Notes under the pieces: generated by a model
Databases searched by the model: none
What the model saw: the letters and a program-made list of their open reading frames with translations, nothing else
Told to the model about the DNA's origin: nothing
Part shown: piece by piece, positions 1 through 21,964 of the stretch
Layout of the letters: each line of letters begins with the position of its first letter
How positions within the stretch are numbered: position 1 is the stretch's first letter
Program-made: the position numbers and the translations under genes
NCBI GenBank assembly: GCA_017456805.1
Contig: JAFTIQ010000061.1
Coordinates: 1 to 21,964 of the forward strand
Length of the DNA: 21,964 bases
Origin: Lentisphaeria bacterium
Lineage (GTDB): Bacteria > Verrucomicrobiota > Lentisphaeria > Victivallales > UBA1829
Direction of reading: 5' to 3'

Positions 1-141
1 ATCAGGCTCTGGATCTGGATTGGGTTCTGGATCTGGCTCCGGATCGGGGTCTGGATCGGGTTCTGGATCGGGTTCTGGATCGGGTTCTGGATCGGGTTCT
101 GGATCTGGTTCCGGATCGGGCTCTGGATCTGGTTCTGGATC
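1..141 (-). repeat. Pro-Asp/Glu-encoding low-complexity repeat
   Basis: A degenerate 6/12-bp tandem repeat (core TGGATCGGGTTC on the plus strand, most regular at about 50-100) encodes alternating Pro with Asp or Glu on the minus strand; one Asn is the only exception. It continues to the window edge, so its full length is unknown. Such a stiff, acidic linker plays the spacer role that Gly-rich linkers play in M13 pIII. It lies in a repeat type prone to slippage. Confidence 0.85.
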
Positions 142-996
142 AACAGGGGAAGAACCGGAAGGAGCTTCAATCAGCCCGATGTAAACTCCATCAGAACCTT
201 TTTGGGAGGTTGAATACCACAAACCGTCAACCTGGACAAAAGTTTGACCAGAGTATTGTGAACTTGAATCTGCTAAAATCTTGTTCGAGGACGTGCAAGA
301 TGCTGCATGTTCAACACGCGTGTTTATATATTCCTTCCGCCATCGCTCCTCGGCGTCAGCTCCAGATACGTCAGATGTTACAGAGACGGTAAAACTGCCA
401 CCGCAACAAGCATGGCGGGAAGTGCTGCAACGGTGATGTTGACTCGAAAAATACTGTGAACCGCAAAACTCGCAAGTTTTTTTTACGCAATTCTTTTCAT
501 GATCTTGTGAAAAATTTTGCATTGCGGTGATAACAGCAGCTTGATCTTCGCTGTTATCGCCTGTCATAGTGGAGAGAAGATCACTGCTGTAAAACATTTT
601 TTCCAATCCGCATTGGGGACACTTATATTTTTGGCAAAAATGCGAAATTTTATAAGATTGAAGACAGGTTCCACATATCATCGGCTCAGTTGAATGAGAG
701 TGTCCTGTATCACAAACAAAACAAAGTTCTTTGCCACAGTCAGCACAATTATAACTGCCGACACTATTGCAAGGAGATTCGTAGTAGAAGAGGAAGCAAG
801 AACTGCAGCTCCAAAATTTTGTAACATGAATATTTTCGTTGAAGGCAAGATCCTTTGAGTCAGGATCCCAAACAAAACGAGACATTGTTTGAGAGCAACC
901 AGGACAGGATTTCACTTCAATTGATGTTGAAGAAATCCAACCAGCATATGAAAAAAACATTAAAAAAAGGAAAAAAAGTGAAAGAGAATTTTTCAT
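1..996 (-). CDS. Secreted cysteine-rich protein with Pro-Asp/Glu repeat, pIII-position (partial, C-terminus outside window)
   Basis: This frame is open from an ATG at 996 to the left edge (332 codons) with no stop, so the C-terminus lies outside. The ATG follows AAAGGA at a usable spacing and overlaps the stop of the upstream 49-aa gene (TAATG). Residues 1-18 form a signal peptide (MKNS, Leu/Phe-rich core, probable cleavage after SYA). Residues 31-234 carry about 21 cysteines, including seven CxxC pairs (CPGC, CSSC, CADC, CFVC, CGTC, CPQC, CEFC), which look like stacked zinc ribbons or disulfide knots. Residues 286-332 are almost pure (Asp-Pro-Glu-Pro)n. In filamentous phages the gene after the coat and small membrane genes is usually the adsorption protein pIII, which has N-terminal receptor domains joined by a low-complexity linker to a membrane anchor. 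Position, export signal and linker fit that role; the sequence itself is not one I recognise, so the function is inferred. Confidence 0.75.
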   Translation of the reverse strand, partial: MKNSLSLFFLFLMFFSYAGWISSTSIEVKSCPGCSQTMSRFVWDPDSKDLAFNENIHVTKFWSCSSCFLFYYESPCNSVGSYNCADCGKELCFVCDTGHSHSTEPMICGTCLQSYKISHFCQKYKCPQCGLEKMFYSSDLLSTMTGDNSEDQAAVITAMQNFSQDHEKNCVKKTCEFCGSQYFSSQHHRCSTSRHACCGGSFTVSVTSDVSGADAEERWRKEYINTRVEHAASCTSSNKILADSSSQYSGQTFVQVDGLWYSTSQKGSDGVYIGLIEAPSGSSPVDPEPDPEPDPEPDPEPDPEPDPEPDPEPDPDPDPEPDPEPNPDPEPD

Positions 997-2880: not shown

Positions 2881-2951
2881 CCAACTTCGCATAATATTCG
2901 TTATATTAAATCGCAGATTTAACATAACTATGTTATATTATGCGACGTTGG
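2881..2951. other. Paired inverted dif-like Xer sites, folded attP / prophage-host junction
   Basis: Two dif-like sites face each other. The left one (2884-2911) has a XerC-type arm ACTTCGCATAA, a 6-bp centre and a XerD-type arm TTATATTAAAT. The right one (2917-2948) has a XerD-type arm ATTTAACATAA, a 10-bp centre and a XerC-type arm TTATGCGACGT. Each half resembles E. coli dif (the left site matches at about 20 of 28 positions by eye). Together they fold into one hairpin: an outer 17-bp stem with one mismatch, an asymmetric internal loop (3 against 7 nt), an inner 11-bp stem with one mismatch, and a 5-nt tip. In CTXphi two inverted dif-like sites on the phage plus strand fold in this way to form the attachment site used by host XerC/XerD. 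Phage genes end on one side, and host tilS lies on the other. Confidence 0.72.
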
Positions 2952-3122: not shown

Positions 3123-4514
3123 TTATAAAAATGAATTTGCTGATTCATTCATTACAAAGCAATTTTTTCCGGAGATCAGGCTTTGAGAAAATGAAAAACC
3201 GTATGAATCTGAATTTTGGGCAGGGTATTTGGCGGAACGTTTCACTCCCGGAATCCAAATAATTTCTCCAGTGTAATCACATAAAACCGGATAATAATCA
3301 CGCAATGGAGCAGGGATCGAGGCATCAGATAATAATTTTCGGACCAAAACAGGGGTATGCTTTCCAAAAGGAATCATTTGATCCCCAGGTTCTGTATTTC
3401 TGAGCAAAAGAGGCTGTTTCACTGCTTCGGGGGCAAAAACCGCATCAATAATACCATCGCCCTTCCCTATGAAATTCCGGGAAAAATAAATCGTCATATT
3501 GGATAAATTGATTTCTGATTGTTCTAAGGGATTCCATTGAATGGACTTGATTTTTTCTTTTTTCAGCAGAAAAAGATCTTCATTCCCAATGAATAATGAA
3601 TAATCAGGGTATCCTGTGATATTTAGTTCAGAGTACCCCTGCCCTGATTTTTTTGTCCTTAATTCCGATTTAAAACGATCGATTAAAATGTGTCCGGGGA
3701 TCACATCTGAACCGATTGTTTCAGATAAAAAACGACGGAAAACCCGGTAGAGAATTGCATCCGGAAGGCTTCTCCAGCTTCGGCATTGGGTAAAATTCCT
3801 TGCTGCATAAGTCTTTTCGGTATAAGATTCAATAAATGATGCATCGGCTTGCAAATTCAAAAGAGCTCTGGATAAGCCATCTTCCGCGTAGGGGAATTTT
3901 TGATAGATCAAGGGCAAGATCTTGTTTCTCAAGAAGTTGCGTCCATAATCCACTTCCAGATTGGTGGCATCTGTTCTCCATTGAAGTCCCCTGCCCTGTA
4001 AAAAATCAGTGATTTGTTTCCGGGTGTAAGAAAGTAAGGGTCTGATAATCGTAATTCCTTGATTATGATTGAATTCTGAAAAAGAAGTCAATGCGCTTGT
4101 GTTAGATCCGCGCATCAATCGCAGAAATAGATTTTCAATTTTGTCATTGGCATTATGTCCGAGGGCGATAATGGATTCCGGAGGGAGCTGTTTCCAGTGG
4201 GCAATCCGCAATCGCCGGGCGGCGGCTTCCACGCCTTCTCCCGGGGCGAGATGTTCAGGAACATTGAGCGTGATGCAGGTGAATGGAATTTTCAGATCCG
4301 AGCAGATTTTTTGACAGAACCTGGCATCTTCCTCCCCTGCCCTACCCCGCAAACCGTGTTCAAAATGGATCGCGTTCAGAGTAAAATGAAACGCTTCCTG
4401 TGCCTCATATAGAAGCAGAAGAAGCGTTAAACTGTCTGCGCCTCCGCTGAATCCGCAATAAACGGTTTTATGATCAAGAAGTTGTGCGTAATCAGCGGAG
4501 AGTGACTGGATCAT
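3123..4514 (-). CDS. tilS: tRNA(Ile)-lysidine synthetase TilS
   Basis: This 463-aa cytoplasmic enzyme attaches lysine to C34 of tRNA-Ile(CAU) with ATP, changing its reading from AUG to AUA. The N-terminal PP-loop ATPase is clear: GFSGGADS at about 21-28, then HFEHGLRG and EAAARRLRIAHW. RGSNTSALTSF and IIRPLL follow, then a substrate-binding middle part and the C-terminal TilS domain (RNTEPGDQMIPFG, VRKLLSDASIPAPLRDYYPVL, IIWIPGVKRS). Length is usual for the full-length form. The usual second motif (HxxDDQxET type) is altered here to GHNANDKIEN. It starts two bases after the trxA stop, so the two genes are one operon. Confidence 0.95.
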   Translation of the reverse strand: MIQSLSADYAQLLDHKTVYCGFSGGADSLTLLLLLYEAQEAFHFTLNAIHFEHGLRGRAGEEDARFCQKICSDLKIPFTCITLNVPEHLAPGEGVEAAARRLRIAHWKQLPPESIIALGHNANDKIENLFLRLMRGSNTSALTSFSEFNHNQGITIIRPLLSYTRKQITDFLQGRGLQWRTDATNLEVDYGRNFLRNKILPLIYQKFPYAEDGLSRALLNLQADASFIESYTEKTYAARNFTQCRSWRSLPDAILYRVFRRFLSETIGSDVIPGHILIDRFKSELRTKKSGQGYSELNITGYPDYSLFIGNEDLFLLKKEKIKSIQWNPLEQSEINLSNMTIYFSRNFIGKGDGIIDAVFAPEAVKQPLLLRNTEPGDQMIPFGKHTPVLVRKLLSDASIPAPLRDYYPVLCDYTGEIIWIPGVKRSAKYPAQNSDSYGFSFSQSLISGKNCFVMNESANSFL

Positions 4515-8148: not shown

Positions 8149-10125
8149 ATGGAAAAACCATTTCTCTTTCAAAAAGACGGGACAGAGGTAACGTTTGACG
8201 GTGCAGCTTTGATTCTGCAACATGCTGGATTTATTCGGAAATGGATCCTGAAGAACGGATGGTGCACTGTTCTTACCGGTTCAAAGGAGTCCGGAGCCGG
8301 ACAGATAAAAAATCCTGCTCCGGATTGGAAGATCACAGCCTGCGAGGGAGCAGCGGAACTCGTATCCGTTGAATGTCAGGAACATGCAGAACGGAAATCA
8401 GTGCTGATTACTTCGCTTTTCCATTATCCGGAATCACAACTTTATCTGAAACATGAGATTACCTGTTTTCCGGGCGTTCCCGGAATGAGAATCCAAGTCA
8501 GCTTGAAATCAGAAGTGGAGATTCCGGCTTTTGAACGCAGTCCTGAACGCGGAGCCCTGCCCCAATTTGTGGATGGCTATTCTGAATCATTGCCTCTGGG
8601 AGATTCCTTTGCCGGATATCATGGGTTCGGATTCAATAATGATTCCCAGCACCGGTATTCACTGGAAACTCCGATTCTGACCGAATGCAGCGGATATGTG
8701 AATGAGTCTGACGGGCTGGTAAGCGTTGGAAACTGCAATGGGATTTTCCTGTATCGGGCGGATGGCAGCGGCTTTGTACTGGTGAAAGAGTCTCATAAAT
8801 GTGCTAACAGTTCCGGGGTTTCAACGGGTGAATTTATTTTCCGGAAGAATCAGATTCATTCCACCGGACTCGGTTTTTCTGACGGGTCTCCCCACTGGCT
8901 TTCCGGGGAAGGTTTTCACTCTGCCTGGGCCAACTGGTGTGTTCCGTTCCGATCCGGGATGAATGAGGCTGTCCGGAATCTGAAACAGTTTGACCGGGCG
9001 AGATATCCCTTTGAAAAAGAACGGGATATGTTTATTGCTATGAACACATGGGGCTCCCGGGGAGATGCTTATTTTTCCCGGATGGCTGCAACAGAAGAAA
9101 ATGTGCTTGCTGAATTGGAAAGCTGCGCAGATCTGGGGATCGATCTTTTGCAAATTGATGACGGATGGCAATTCAAACCCGGGACGGCTGACTTTCAAAA
9201 CTGTGCCTGGGTCCCCTCCCCTGAAGGGTTTCCGCATGGATGGAGTGCTGTCAAACAGCGGGCAAAAGAGCTGGGAATGAAGCTCGGATTATGGGCTCCG
9301 CCTGATTTTATCACAGCAGAACAATTGATCGAAAATATCCGGGAAGGCGGATTCCGGAGAATCAAACTGGATTTTCTGAATCTGACCAAACGGAACCTGC
9401 TGGATCAATTGCTGGAATTCGCTCAAAAGATCATCTCGTCAAGCCCGGAACCCGTTGGGATCAATTGGGATATTACAGAAAAAAGCCCCCGCATGGGATT
9501 CTATTTCGGACGGGAATATGGAAATATCTTTTTGCAGAATTGCGAAAACTCGCCGCCGGGAATGACAAGCAAACGGTTTATTGCTTATGATCCGGAAGTT
9601 ACGCTGAATCAGACTTGGCTTCTGGCAAAATATTTTAACTTGAATCAAGTCCAGATCACAATCCAGAGAATCGCGGAATCTCCTCATGGAAAGGGATATC
9701 CGCAGGATTATGCTTGCGGGATCGCTCTCATGGGGAATCCTCTGTTCTTTCTGGAAAGCAGACGGTTTTCGGAAGAGGAACGCGCTCTTGTCAAGAACGT
9801 GCTTACGGTTTATAAAAAATACCGGGAAAAGATTCTGAACGGATATGTCTCTCCCATCGGACGGCAGCCGGATGGAACAGTTTGGACCGGTTTCCAGTGC
9901 ACTTGTTCTCACGACTGTGGTTTTCTGACGCTGTTCCGGGAAAAAGATTCAGAAGAACCCTCCGCAAGGATCCGGTTGGATGTTCCTGCCGGAAGCACAA
10001 TCCGTCTGCAAGGACTTTATCAGGGAAAAGATCAGATCCTGAAACCGGAACCGGATGGAACATATTTGTTCAGCGATCTTGAACGTGCTGCATGGGCCTT
10101 TTACCGTTATGAGGTGACGGAATGA
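8149..10125 (+). CDS. Alpha-galactosidase-like glycoside hydrolase (clan GH-D, GH36/GH27-like)
   Basis: This 658-aa protein has an N-terminal beta-sandwich-like part (1-290) and a C-terminal catalytic barrel. The barrel shows the clan GH-D hallmarks: MNTWGS, DLLQIDDGWQ (about 332-341), GMKLGLWAPPDF, and IKLDFLN with the probable nucleophile Asp near 408. The order is as in GH36 enzymes, which remove alpha-galactosyl groups with retention. The usual acid/base region is divergent (GINWDITEKSPRMGFYFG), so the exact substrate cannot be assigned. No signal peptide is present, so it acts in the cytoplasm on imported oligosaccharides. It starts one base after the preceding stop and overlaps the regulator gene by four bases (ATGA). 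Confidence 0.82.
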   Translation: MEKPFLFQKDGTEVTFDGAALILQHAGFIRKWILKNGWCTVLTGSKESGAGQIKNPAPDWKITACEGAAELVSVECQEHAERKSVLITSLFHYPESQLYLKHEITCFPGVPGMRIQVSLKSEVEIPAFERSPERGALPQFVDGYSESLPLGDSFAGYHGFGFNNDSQHRYSLETPILTECSGYVNESDGLVSVGNCNGIFLYRADGSGFVLVKESHKCANSSGVSTGEFIFRKNQIHSTGLGFSDGSPHWLSGEGFHSAWANWCVPFRSGMNEAVRNLKQFDRARYPFEKERDMFIAMNTWGSRGDAYFSRMAATEENVLAELESCADLGIDLLQIDDGWQFKPGTADFQNCAWVPSPEGFPHGWSAVKQRAKELGMKLGLWAPPDFITAEQLIENIREGGFRRIKLDFLNLTKRNLLDQLLEFAQKIISSSPEPVGINWDITEKSPRMGFYFGREYGNIFLQNCENSPPGMTSKRFIAYDPEVTLNQTWLLAKYFNLNQVQITIQRIAESPHGKGYPQDYACGIALMGNPLFFLESRRFSEEERALVKNVLTVYKKYREKILNGYVSPIGRQPDGTVWTGFQCTCSHDCGFLTLFREKDSEEPSARIRLDVPAGSTIRLQGLYQGKDQILKPEPDGTYLFSDLERAAWAFYRYEVTE

Positions 10126-14491: not shown

Positions 14492-14519
14492 ACTTAACAT
14501 AATGCAAATTATGCGATGT
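14492..14519. other. Canonical dif-like XerC/XerD recombination site
   Basis: A XerD-type arm ACTTAACATAA (14492-14502) and a XerC-type arm TTATGCGATGT (14509-14519) are separated by exactly 6 bp, the spacing of bacterial dif. Read on the opposite strand it matches E. coli dif at about 20 of 28 positions by eye. The XerC-side flank GG after the arm also matches the two sites at 2884-2948 (shared CCAAC-N-TCGCATAAT on the minus strand). It could be the chromosomal dimer-resolution site or the scar of an Xer-integrated element. Confidence 0.7.
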
Positions 14520-21382: not shown

Positions 21383-21964
21383 TTATTGCGAAACATTTAA
21401 TTTTTTCAATGCTTCCTGTGCCTCAATATCCCCTTGTTCTGCAGCCTTGCGAAACCAGAATACTGCTTGCTTCAGATCCTTTTGAACTCCATCGCCGTCT
21501 CTATAGCACTCACCTAAATTATATTGCGCTTGTGCATATCCTTGTTCTGCAGCTTTACGATACCAGAACACCGCCTGTGTCAAATTCTTTTGAACTCCAT
21601 CGCCGTTTTCATAGCAAAAGCCTAAATTACATTGCGCTTGTGCATCCCCTTGTTCTGCAGCTTTGCGATACCAGAACACTGCCTGTGCCATATCCTTTTG
21701 AACTCCATAGCCGTTTCTATAGCAAACACCTAAATTATATTGCGCTTGTGCATATCCTTGTTCAGCGGCTTTTCTCCACCAGAACACCGCCTGTGTCAAA
21801 TCCTTTTGAACTCCATAGCCGTTTTTATAGCAAACGCCTAAATTAAATTGCGCTTGTGCATATCCTTGTTCAGCGGCTTTGCGATACCAGAACACTGCCT
21901 GTGCCAAATCCTTTTGAACTCCATCGCCATTTCTATAGCAATCACCTAAATTAAATTGCGCTTG
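21383..21964 (-). CDS. Sel1-like (TPR-type) repeat protein, partial at N-terminus
   Basis: The frame is open to the right edge, so the start lies outside the window; no ATG start is implied by the Met-like first residue at 21907, which is a TTG inside the repeat. The visible 193 residues consist of about five 36-residue Sel1 repeats of the form AEQGYAQAQYNLGVCYRNGYGVQKDLTQAVFWYRKA, ending EAQEALKKLNVSQ. Sel1 repeats form helix-turn-helix solenoids that bind proteins, often in envelope stress or signalling. Because the N-terminus is missing, export and partner domains cannot be judged. Confidence 0.92.
   Translation of the reverse strand, partial: QAQFNLGDCYRNGDGVQKDLAQAVFWYRKAAEQGYAQAQFNLGVCYKNGYGVQKDLTQAVFWWRKAAEQGYAQAQYNLGVCYRNGYGVQKDMAQAVFWYRKAAEQGDAQAQCNLGFCYENGDGVQKNLTQAVFWYRKAAEQGYAQAQYNLGECYRDGDGVQKDLKQAVFWFRKAAEQGDIEAQEALKKLNVSQ
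21400..21964 (-). repeat. Near-identical 108-bp tandem DNA repeats inside the Sel1 gene
   Basis: A 108-bp unit repeats at a constant step (for example the TTGCGCTTGTGCAT block near 21525, 21633, 21741, 21849 and 21957), with very few differences between copies. Each encodes one 36-residue Sel1 repeat. The similarity at the DNA level suggests recent duplication or gene conversion and makes copy-number change and misassembly likely here. Confidence 0.9.

Follow-up and report, generated by a model that had tools for sequence, protein, structure and literature searches.

CTXphi, through its folded attachment site (attP), serves as the standard example of a virus that exploits chromosome-dimer resolution by means of single-stranded DNA. 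In integron attC sites, likewise, a folded single strand is recombined with a double-stranded site by the integron integrase. These attC sites form the other single-strand family (PMC3089051); they are likened to the present locus by description and differ in the recombinase, which is the integron integrase there and is proposed to be host XerC/XerD here. As described in PMC3089051 and PMC4246890, CTXphi attP consists of two dif-like sites in opposite orientation about 90 nt apart, attP1 with a 12-bp centre and attP2 with a centre of 5-7 bp, which fold into a forked structure of about 150 nt. The exchange is performed by XerC alone, compatibility depends on the bases that adjoin the XerC arm, and integration leaves attP1/attP2 at one prophage end and a new functional dif at the other; PMC5357621 agrees with this account. 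Neither CTXphi site suits as a double-stranded substrate since the centres are extended or incompatible, and RS1, YpfPhi and CUS-1Phi are related members of the type (PMC4246890). CTXphi-type IMEX are characterised as filamentous phages that lack an integrase of their own, recombine as (+)ssDNA and are not excised. VGJphi-type phages also use XerC at dif, with a single dif-like attP that has a 7-bp centre (PMC3089051). Inoviruses of Lentisphaerae have been published and are described as residing outside the host chromosome (PMC11361711); the terms 'dif site' and 'XerC' are absent from the main text of that paper. Among the titles and abstract openings within reach, which leave out most subscription journals, there was no report of dif-like attP sites in Lentisphaerae phages.

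The window, the whole 21,964-nt stretch of DNA that was analysed, contains a 71-nt hairpin built from two inverted dif-like sites (Table 1). The initial annotation had described two inverted XerC/XerD-type sites 5 nt apart with centres of 6 and 10 bp; the sequence and a pattern scan both confirmed the pair, and the centres read TATTCG and TATAACATAG. The pattern TCGCATAAT N5-14 TATRTTAA matched three times in the window against 0.00 expected (100 shuffles), namely at both hairpin sites and at a third site at 14494-14516. Half of the hairpin used as an exact pattern gave 0 matches, and a blastn search of the hairpin against phage records gave none.

Table 1. Features of the hairpin and its surroundings in window coordinates; arms and centres are delimited with 11-bp arms.
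Feature	Position	Strand	Basis or remark
pIII-like protein, leaves the window	1..996	-	Position and EPDP repeats; Pfam/PHROGs matches to low complexity only
Coat-like protein, 81 aa	1179..1424	-	Signal peptide and membrane segment by eye; no Pfam/PHROGs match
Phage replication protein (Rep), 283 aa	1608..2459	-	PF23343 E 2.3e-15; phrog_3419 E 1.9e-16
Phage ORF, 88 aa	2593..2859	-	ATG 21 nt past the hairpin; position of an ssDNA-binding protein, no family match
Compact 71-nt attP-like hairpin with a pair of inverted dif-like sites	2881..2951	-	Sequence, pattern scan, ssDNA fold
attP2-like site, whole	2884..2911	+	Sequence
attP2-like XerC arm ACTTCGCATAA, 11 bp	2884..2894	+	
attP2-like centre TATTCG, 6 bp	2895..2900	+	
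attP2-like XerD arm TTATATTAAAT, 11 bp	2901..2911	+	
Spacer CTGCG between XerD arms, 5 nt	2912..2916	-	
attP1-like XerD arm TTATGTTAAAT, 11 bp	2917..2927	-	Sequence
attP1-like centre TATAACATAG, 10 bp	2928..2937	-	Sequence
attP1-like XerC arm ACGTCGCATAA, 11 bp	2938..2948	-	Sequence; probable host half, judged from the plain dif of relatives
Host tilS	3123..4514	-	PF01171 E 3.2e-44; syntenic in G093, G094 and G095; places the chromosomal dif

Positions 2881-2951 were folded as single-stranded DNA, as had been proposed, and gave -20.1 kcal/mol on the minus (phage coding) strand (z -9.32) and -17.3 kcal/mol on the plus strand (z -7.12), with 0 of 200 shuffles as good in either case. Since any two inverted copies of dif will necessarily pair, folding energy is not independent of dif-likeness; what is independent about the hairpin is its unequal centres, its 5-nt spacer and its location. 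On the minus strand, an outer stem of 16 pairs with one internal mismatch is separated by four unpaired nucleotides, an isolated pair and a mismatch from an inner 13-pair stem that ends in a loop of 3 nt. The predicted outer stem of 17 bp, bulge of 3 against 7 nt and inner stem of 11 bp were thus close, but the stem counts differ and the interruption is altered. The XerD arms pair at 11 of 11 positions. Because the spacer between them is only 5 nt, the fold is a single unbranched imperfect hairpin, and the term 'forked' used for it earlier does not apply.

The layout matches the published CTXphi layout apart from spacing and branching, which supports the CTXphi-like attP reading put forward in the initial annotation; its statement that one CTXphi centre is enlarged and that the sites lie far apart is also in print, as 12 bp and about 90 nt (PMC4246890, PMC3089051). 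As in CTXphi, two inverted dif-like sites lie at dif, at one end of a probably filamentous prophage. The site with the enlarged centre adjoins the host XerC arm, and the other centre (6 bp) falls within the range of 5-7 bp; the bases next to the XerC arm may be compatible with the host centre, as deduced from relatives. The differences are an attP1 centre of 10 rather than 12 bp (enlarged in kind, 2 bp shorter), a spacer of 5 rather than about 90 nt, and an unbranched hairpin of 71 nt rather than a forked one of about 150 nt. In its anatomy the window hairpin is therefore a compact variant of the CTXphi-type attP that departs from the published spacing and fork; its host, a Lentisphaerota-like bacterium, is a further difference.

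Phage genes are directed away from the hairpin on one flank and tilS occupies the opposite flank, in agreement with the suggestion that the structure marks one prophage end. The window covers about 2.9 kb of the phage, in which neither the coat-like nor the pIII-like protein gives a meaningful family match; none of the 17 homologues of the 81-aa coat-like protein carries a functional name. From the look of these two proteins the phage is most likely filamentous, and any Zot gene that it has would fall beyond the window. Rep is 73-81% identical to Rep of the related phages P0002-P0005. As a single-protein query it had no match among viral contigs; an alignment of Rep matched 42 distant loci there, whose dif-like matches we took as chance. 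Against phage records, Rep found nine distant entries with less than 50% covered. Through the phylum, the alignment had matches in 9 of 387 genomes, and the two out-of-class matches examined (L338, L339) have no inverted dif-like pair.

To the right of the hairpin the host genes tilS, trxA and metG follow one another, an order that is kept between the window and the relatives G093, G094 and G095. Identity of these three relatives to the window is 58-59% for TilS, 78-93% for TrxA and 66-92% for MetG, the 66% being a partial match at a contig end. A search for TilS in the genome collection found a single relative, from a Lentisphaerae MAG (39% identity). G093, G094 and G095 each have a plain dif (centre TATATA) some 200 nt 3' of tilS, oriented like attP1 of the window and without a hairpin, which speaks against the refuting case named in the initial annotation, the same hairpin in relatives lacking the phage. 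Since a plain dif occupies the same tilS-linked spot in all three, the phage appears, by synteny, to be inserted in the host chromosomal dif. The host centre at the window locus was taken from these relatives. Across the class, the dif pattern with a centre of 5-14 bp had matches in 100 of 197 genomes; the commonest centre among the matches listed was ATATAT, which is TATATA in the 11-6-11 reading. A separate broad dif scan matched at least 120 stretches.

We scanned for inverted XerC arms enclosing XerD-like arms in 151 stretches (overlaps included) from part of the 197 genomes, together with the window. Four dif-integrated sister elements with unequal pairs were counted: L012 (G066; centres 10/7, spacer 74 nt), L279 (G131; 11/6, 44 nt), L280 (G132; 11/6, 35 nt) and L302 (G154; 9/7, 100 nt). 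Their near ends all have the same design, with centres of 9-11 and 6-7 bp, and at the far end of each (4/4) its own XerC flank is followed by a canonical dif. L012, L280 and L302 occur as tandem copies (L012 adjoins a run of N), whereas L279 is bordered on either side by one and the same flank; both patterns are expected if each insertion regenerates dif. The L280 repeat unit is 8.6 kb long and encodes Zot (PF05707 E 1.1e-5; phrog_197 E 1e-10) and a secretin (PF00263 E 4.8e-9; phrog_1012 E 1e-8). Only L012 has the same kind of Rep as the window phage (39% identity). Together, the window site and the four sisters indicate a CTXphi-like trick in Lentisphaeria, far from vibrios. A fifth candidate, L318/L383 (G182; L318:12006-12178), is an inverted pair at dif with centres 7/6 in the coding direction and strong folds (-44.6 and -47.7 kcal/mol). 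It has the opposite orientation to the other elements, a secretin-like ORF adjoins it (by eye) and its far end lies past the contig; it was left out of the sister count and of the comparison below. The inverted pairs L028/L272, L055 and L283 were omitted as weak, and L013 (G080) has a dif-like site near rep with no clear inverted partner. As a separate observation, L302:6901-11921 holds two tandem 2.5-kb elements, each with a Rep_1-like Rep and an attP hairpin and ending in dif; no coat or Zot gene was seen in them, and they are satellite-like in the manner of RS1.

We consider it highly probable that a filamentous phage entered the host chromosomal dif as single-stranded DNA and that the window hairpin is its attP(+), which most likely functions in the manner of a CTXphi-type attP(+). 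Within the phage coding strand, the two inverted dif-like sites would pair into a duplex made up of a XerC arm, a centre of unequal sides (10 vs 6 nt) and a XerD arm that a tiny loop closes. This folded duplex would be bound, together with the chromosomal dif, by host XerC and XerD, and XerC would exchange one strand pair at the XerC-arm border; the cut in the attP1-like site is predicted between 2938 and 2937. The unequal centre would prevent a second exchange and host replication would complete the insertion. The prophage would then start with a host XerC arm and the hairpin, matching 2951-2881, so that the outer XerC arm is probably the host half of the original chromosomal dif. It should end beyond the window in a regenerated dif consisting of the XerC arm, TATATA and TTATGTTAA.

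Pairing was compared in the five Lentisphaeria elements, the window and the four sisters. Their XerD arms differ between elements and pair within them at 11, 11, 10, 11 and 11 of 11 positions, and the one transition that distinguishes the two XerD arms is in 5/5 of the type that puts a G.T pair on the coding strand. In all five elements attP2 can pair with the first three bases of the host centre, and the first three bases of attP1 pair with the host at 3, 2, 2, 2 and 2 of 3 positions. For the window, 3/3 bases adjacent to the XerC arm are compatible on both sides, with a host centre taken from relatives and a rule that discriminates poorly: phages L012, L279 and L280 fit all five hosts. Two published pairs scored likewise gave 3/3 and 3/3 in one case and 2/3 and 3/3 for CTX-G/difG. 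Host-centre pairing is consistent with the CTXphi-type route and not decisive.

The compactness of the hairpin also raises another route. A spacer of some 90 nt discourages cruciform extrusion and one of 5 nt could permit it, so the attP could fold in double-stranded DNA. With its 5-nt spacer and A+T-rich imperfect palindrome, the site might be extruded from supercoiled double-stranded DNA and adopt its fold in the replicative form as well as in the prophage; integration would then be independent of single-stranded DNA and reversible at the regenerated dif. We regard this as unlikely. If true, the one-way integration of CTXphi would have been turned two-way by shrinking a loop. Because the window offers a 71-nt natural substrate that lacks the long forked middle, both the need for the fork and reversibility can be tested with one oligonucleotide.

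We tabulated 19 elements: the window, the four sisters and 14 of 18 viral contigs found with longer-spacer patterns (two scans, 10 and 8 contigs). L341, L342, L345 (microvirus capsid), L349 (same hairpin as L348), L375 and L377 were left out, the last two because their arms do not fold onto each other. All 12 of the viral contigs searched with Pfam for Zot, the 14 less L374 and L379, gave a match. Several rows are related to one another, so the following counts are not independent. On the coding strand the larger centre precedes the smaller in 13/19 elements, the centres are equal in 5/19 and the order is reversed in 1/19, and the coding strand gives the more stable fold in 16/19. Transitions favouring a coding-strand wobble number 13 against 7, with 58 transversions (both arms), a weak bias. 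All the other elements share with the window inverted, unequal or near-equal dif-like sites that fold, but the spacer between XerD arms is 32-100 nt in these 18 and 5 nt in the window, whose hairpin is smaller than any other compared. Centre size and spacing in the window that are off the published values, the equal or reversed centres of some elements and the orientation of L318/L383 are points against a CTXphi-type reading.

Such an outlying size could also mean that the hairpin, while of the same ancestry, is a crippled relic that has lost its spacer and no longer works, the insertion having been made by an ancestor or by an intact partner phage. No compared element has a spacer shorter than 32 nt, and a search of viral contigs with compact patterns, which as exact patterns overlook diverged arms, turned up no counterpart that is both folded and dif-like. 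The compact pattern matched two contigs with one shared sequence and tailed-phage-like genomes (L341, L342); these were rejected as counterparts: pairing extends over 12 bases of the outer arms, yet the fold reaches just -12.7 kcal/mol and the inner arms do not resemble dif. A relaxed compact pattern matched 20 viral contigs with a best fold of only -10.9 kcal/mol, among them L354/L369, L356 and L365 with partial pairing across the arms. Decay is nevertheless improbable in our view: the Rep, coat-like and 88-aa ORFs are open, the XerD arms pair throughout, and the foot of the hairpin, the presumed place of XerC action, has not changed. Among the contigs set aside, the microvirus contig L345 (capsid PF02305) carries at 20-112 a dif-like site with an inverted XerC-arm-like stretch nearby and no fold across the arms.

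Integration of double-stranded DNA through one dif-like site, as in VGJphi-type phages, with the second inverted site incidental or regulatory, is less probable still. The window phage likewise is probably filamentous and sits at dif with a XerC-side junction, and such phages do use XerC there with a single 7-bp-centre site (PMC3089051). However, the window has two inverted sites with centres of 10 and 6 bp, neither of them 7 bp, and the extended or incompatible centres of CTXphi are unsuited to double-stranded use (PMC4246890). The two-site layout is, moreover, kept in the four sister elements. Filamentous phages carry hairpins in intergenic regions and this one precedes a phage start codon by 21 nt, but an ordinary replication origin, terminator or regulator that is dif-like by chance is very improbable, as both sites match the class dif pattern with 0.00 expected and the location is that of the chromosomal dif of three relatives, whose syntenic empty sites make chance unlikely. 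The attP(+) of a filamentous phage integrating as single-stranded DNA thus remains our preferred reading.

A second perfect dif-like site is present at 14492-14519 (minus strand; centre TTTGCA in the 11-6-11 reading). It has the same orientation as the chromosomal dif, lies 11.5 kb from the hairpin between a 997-aa ORF and rex, and has no inverted partner within the window. We rejected it as the occupied or regenerated chromosomal dif, because in G093, G094 and G095 it is the dif next to tilS that marks the chromosomal site; a role as the phage-end dif is also contradicted, since what follows it in the window is rex instead of phage DNA. G093 and G095 share a syntenic block that reaches from tilS to the 997-aa ORF, and no comparable dif with at most two mismatches per arm follows that ORF in these two genomes, apart from a site with four mismatches at L380:6430.

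Inverted dif-like pairs of a different kind, with an identical centre in both copies (not ATATAT) and about 107-138 bp apart, were seen at several loci and kept out of the 19-element table. They are located in G142 (L061:8619-8771, L335:890-1043, L336:774-926), G153 (L062:5787-5939, L337:5505-5658), G095 (L065:15-144), G188 (L322:11980-12117) and G088 (L070:5990-6119 and 9958-10086). A promoter scan of L061 gave no excess (2 found, 2.3 expected), and literature titles and abstract openings contained no report of Xer-flipped pairs with identical centres. The pairs of L061, L336 and L337 precede large repetitive surface-protein-like ORFs, those of L322 and L070 lie at the start of pseudopilin-like ORFs, and L065 and L335 have neither ORF type. 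They resemble invertible elements whose orientation might be switched by Xer-type recombination. Finally, the end of the window (21383-21964, minus strand) encodes a repeat protein, which we take to be a Sel1-like repeat protein, with 108-nt DNA repeats that are 84-89% alike.
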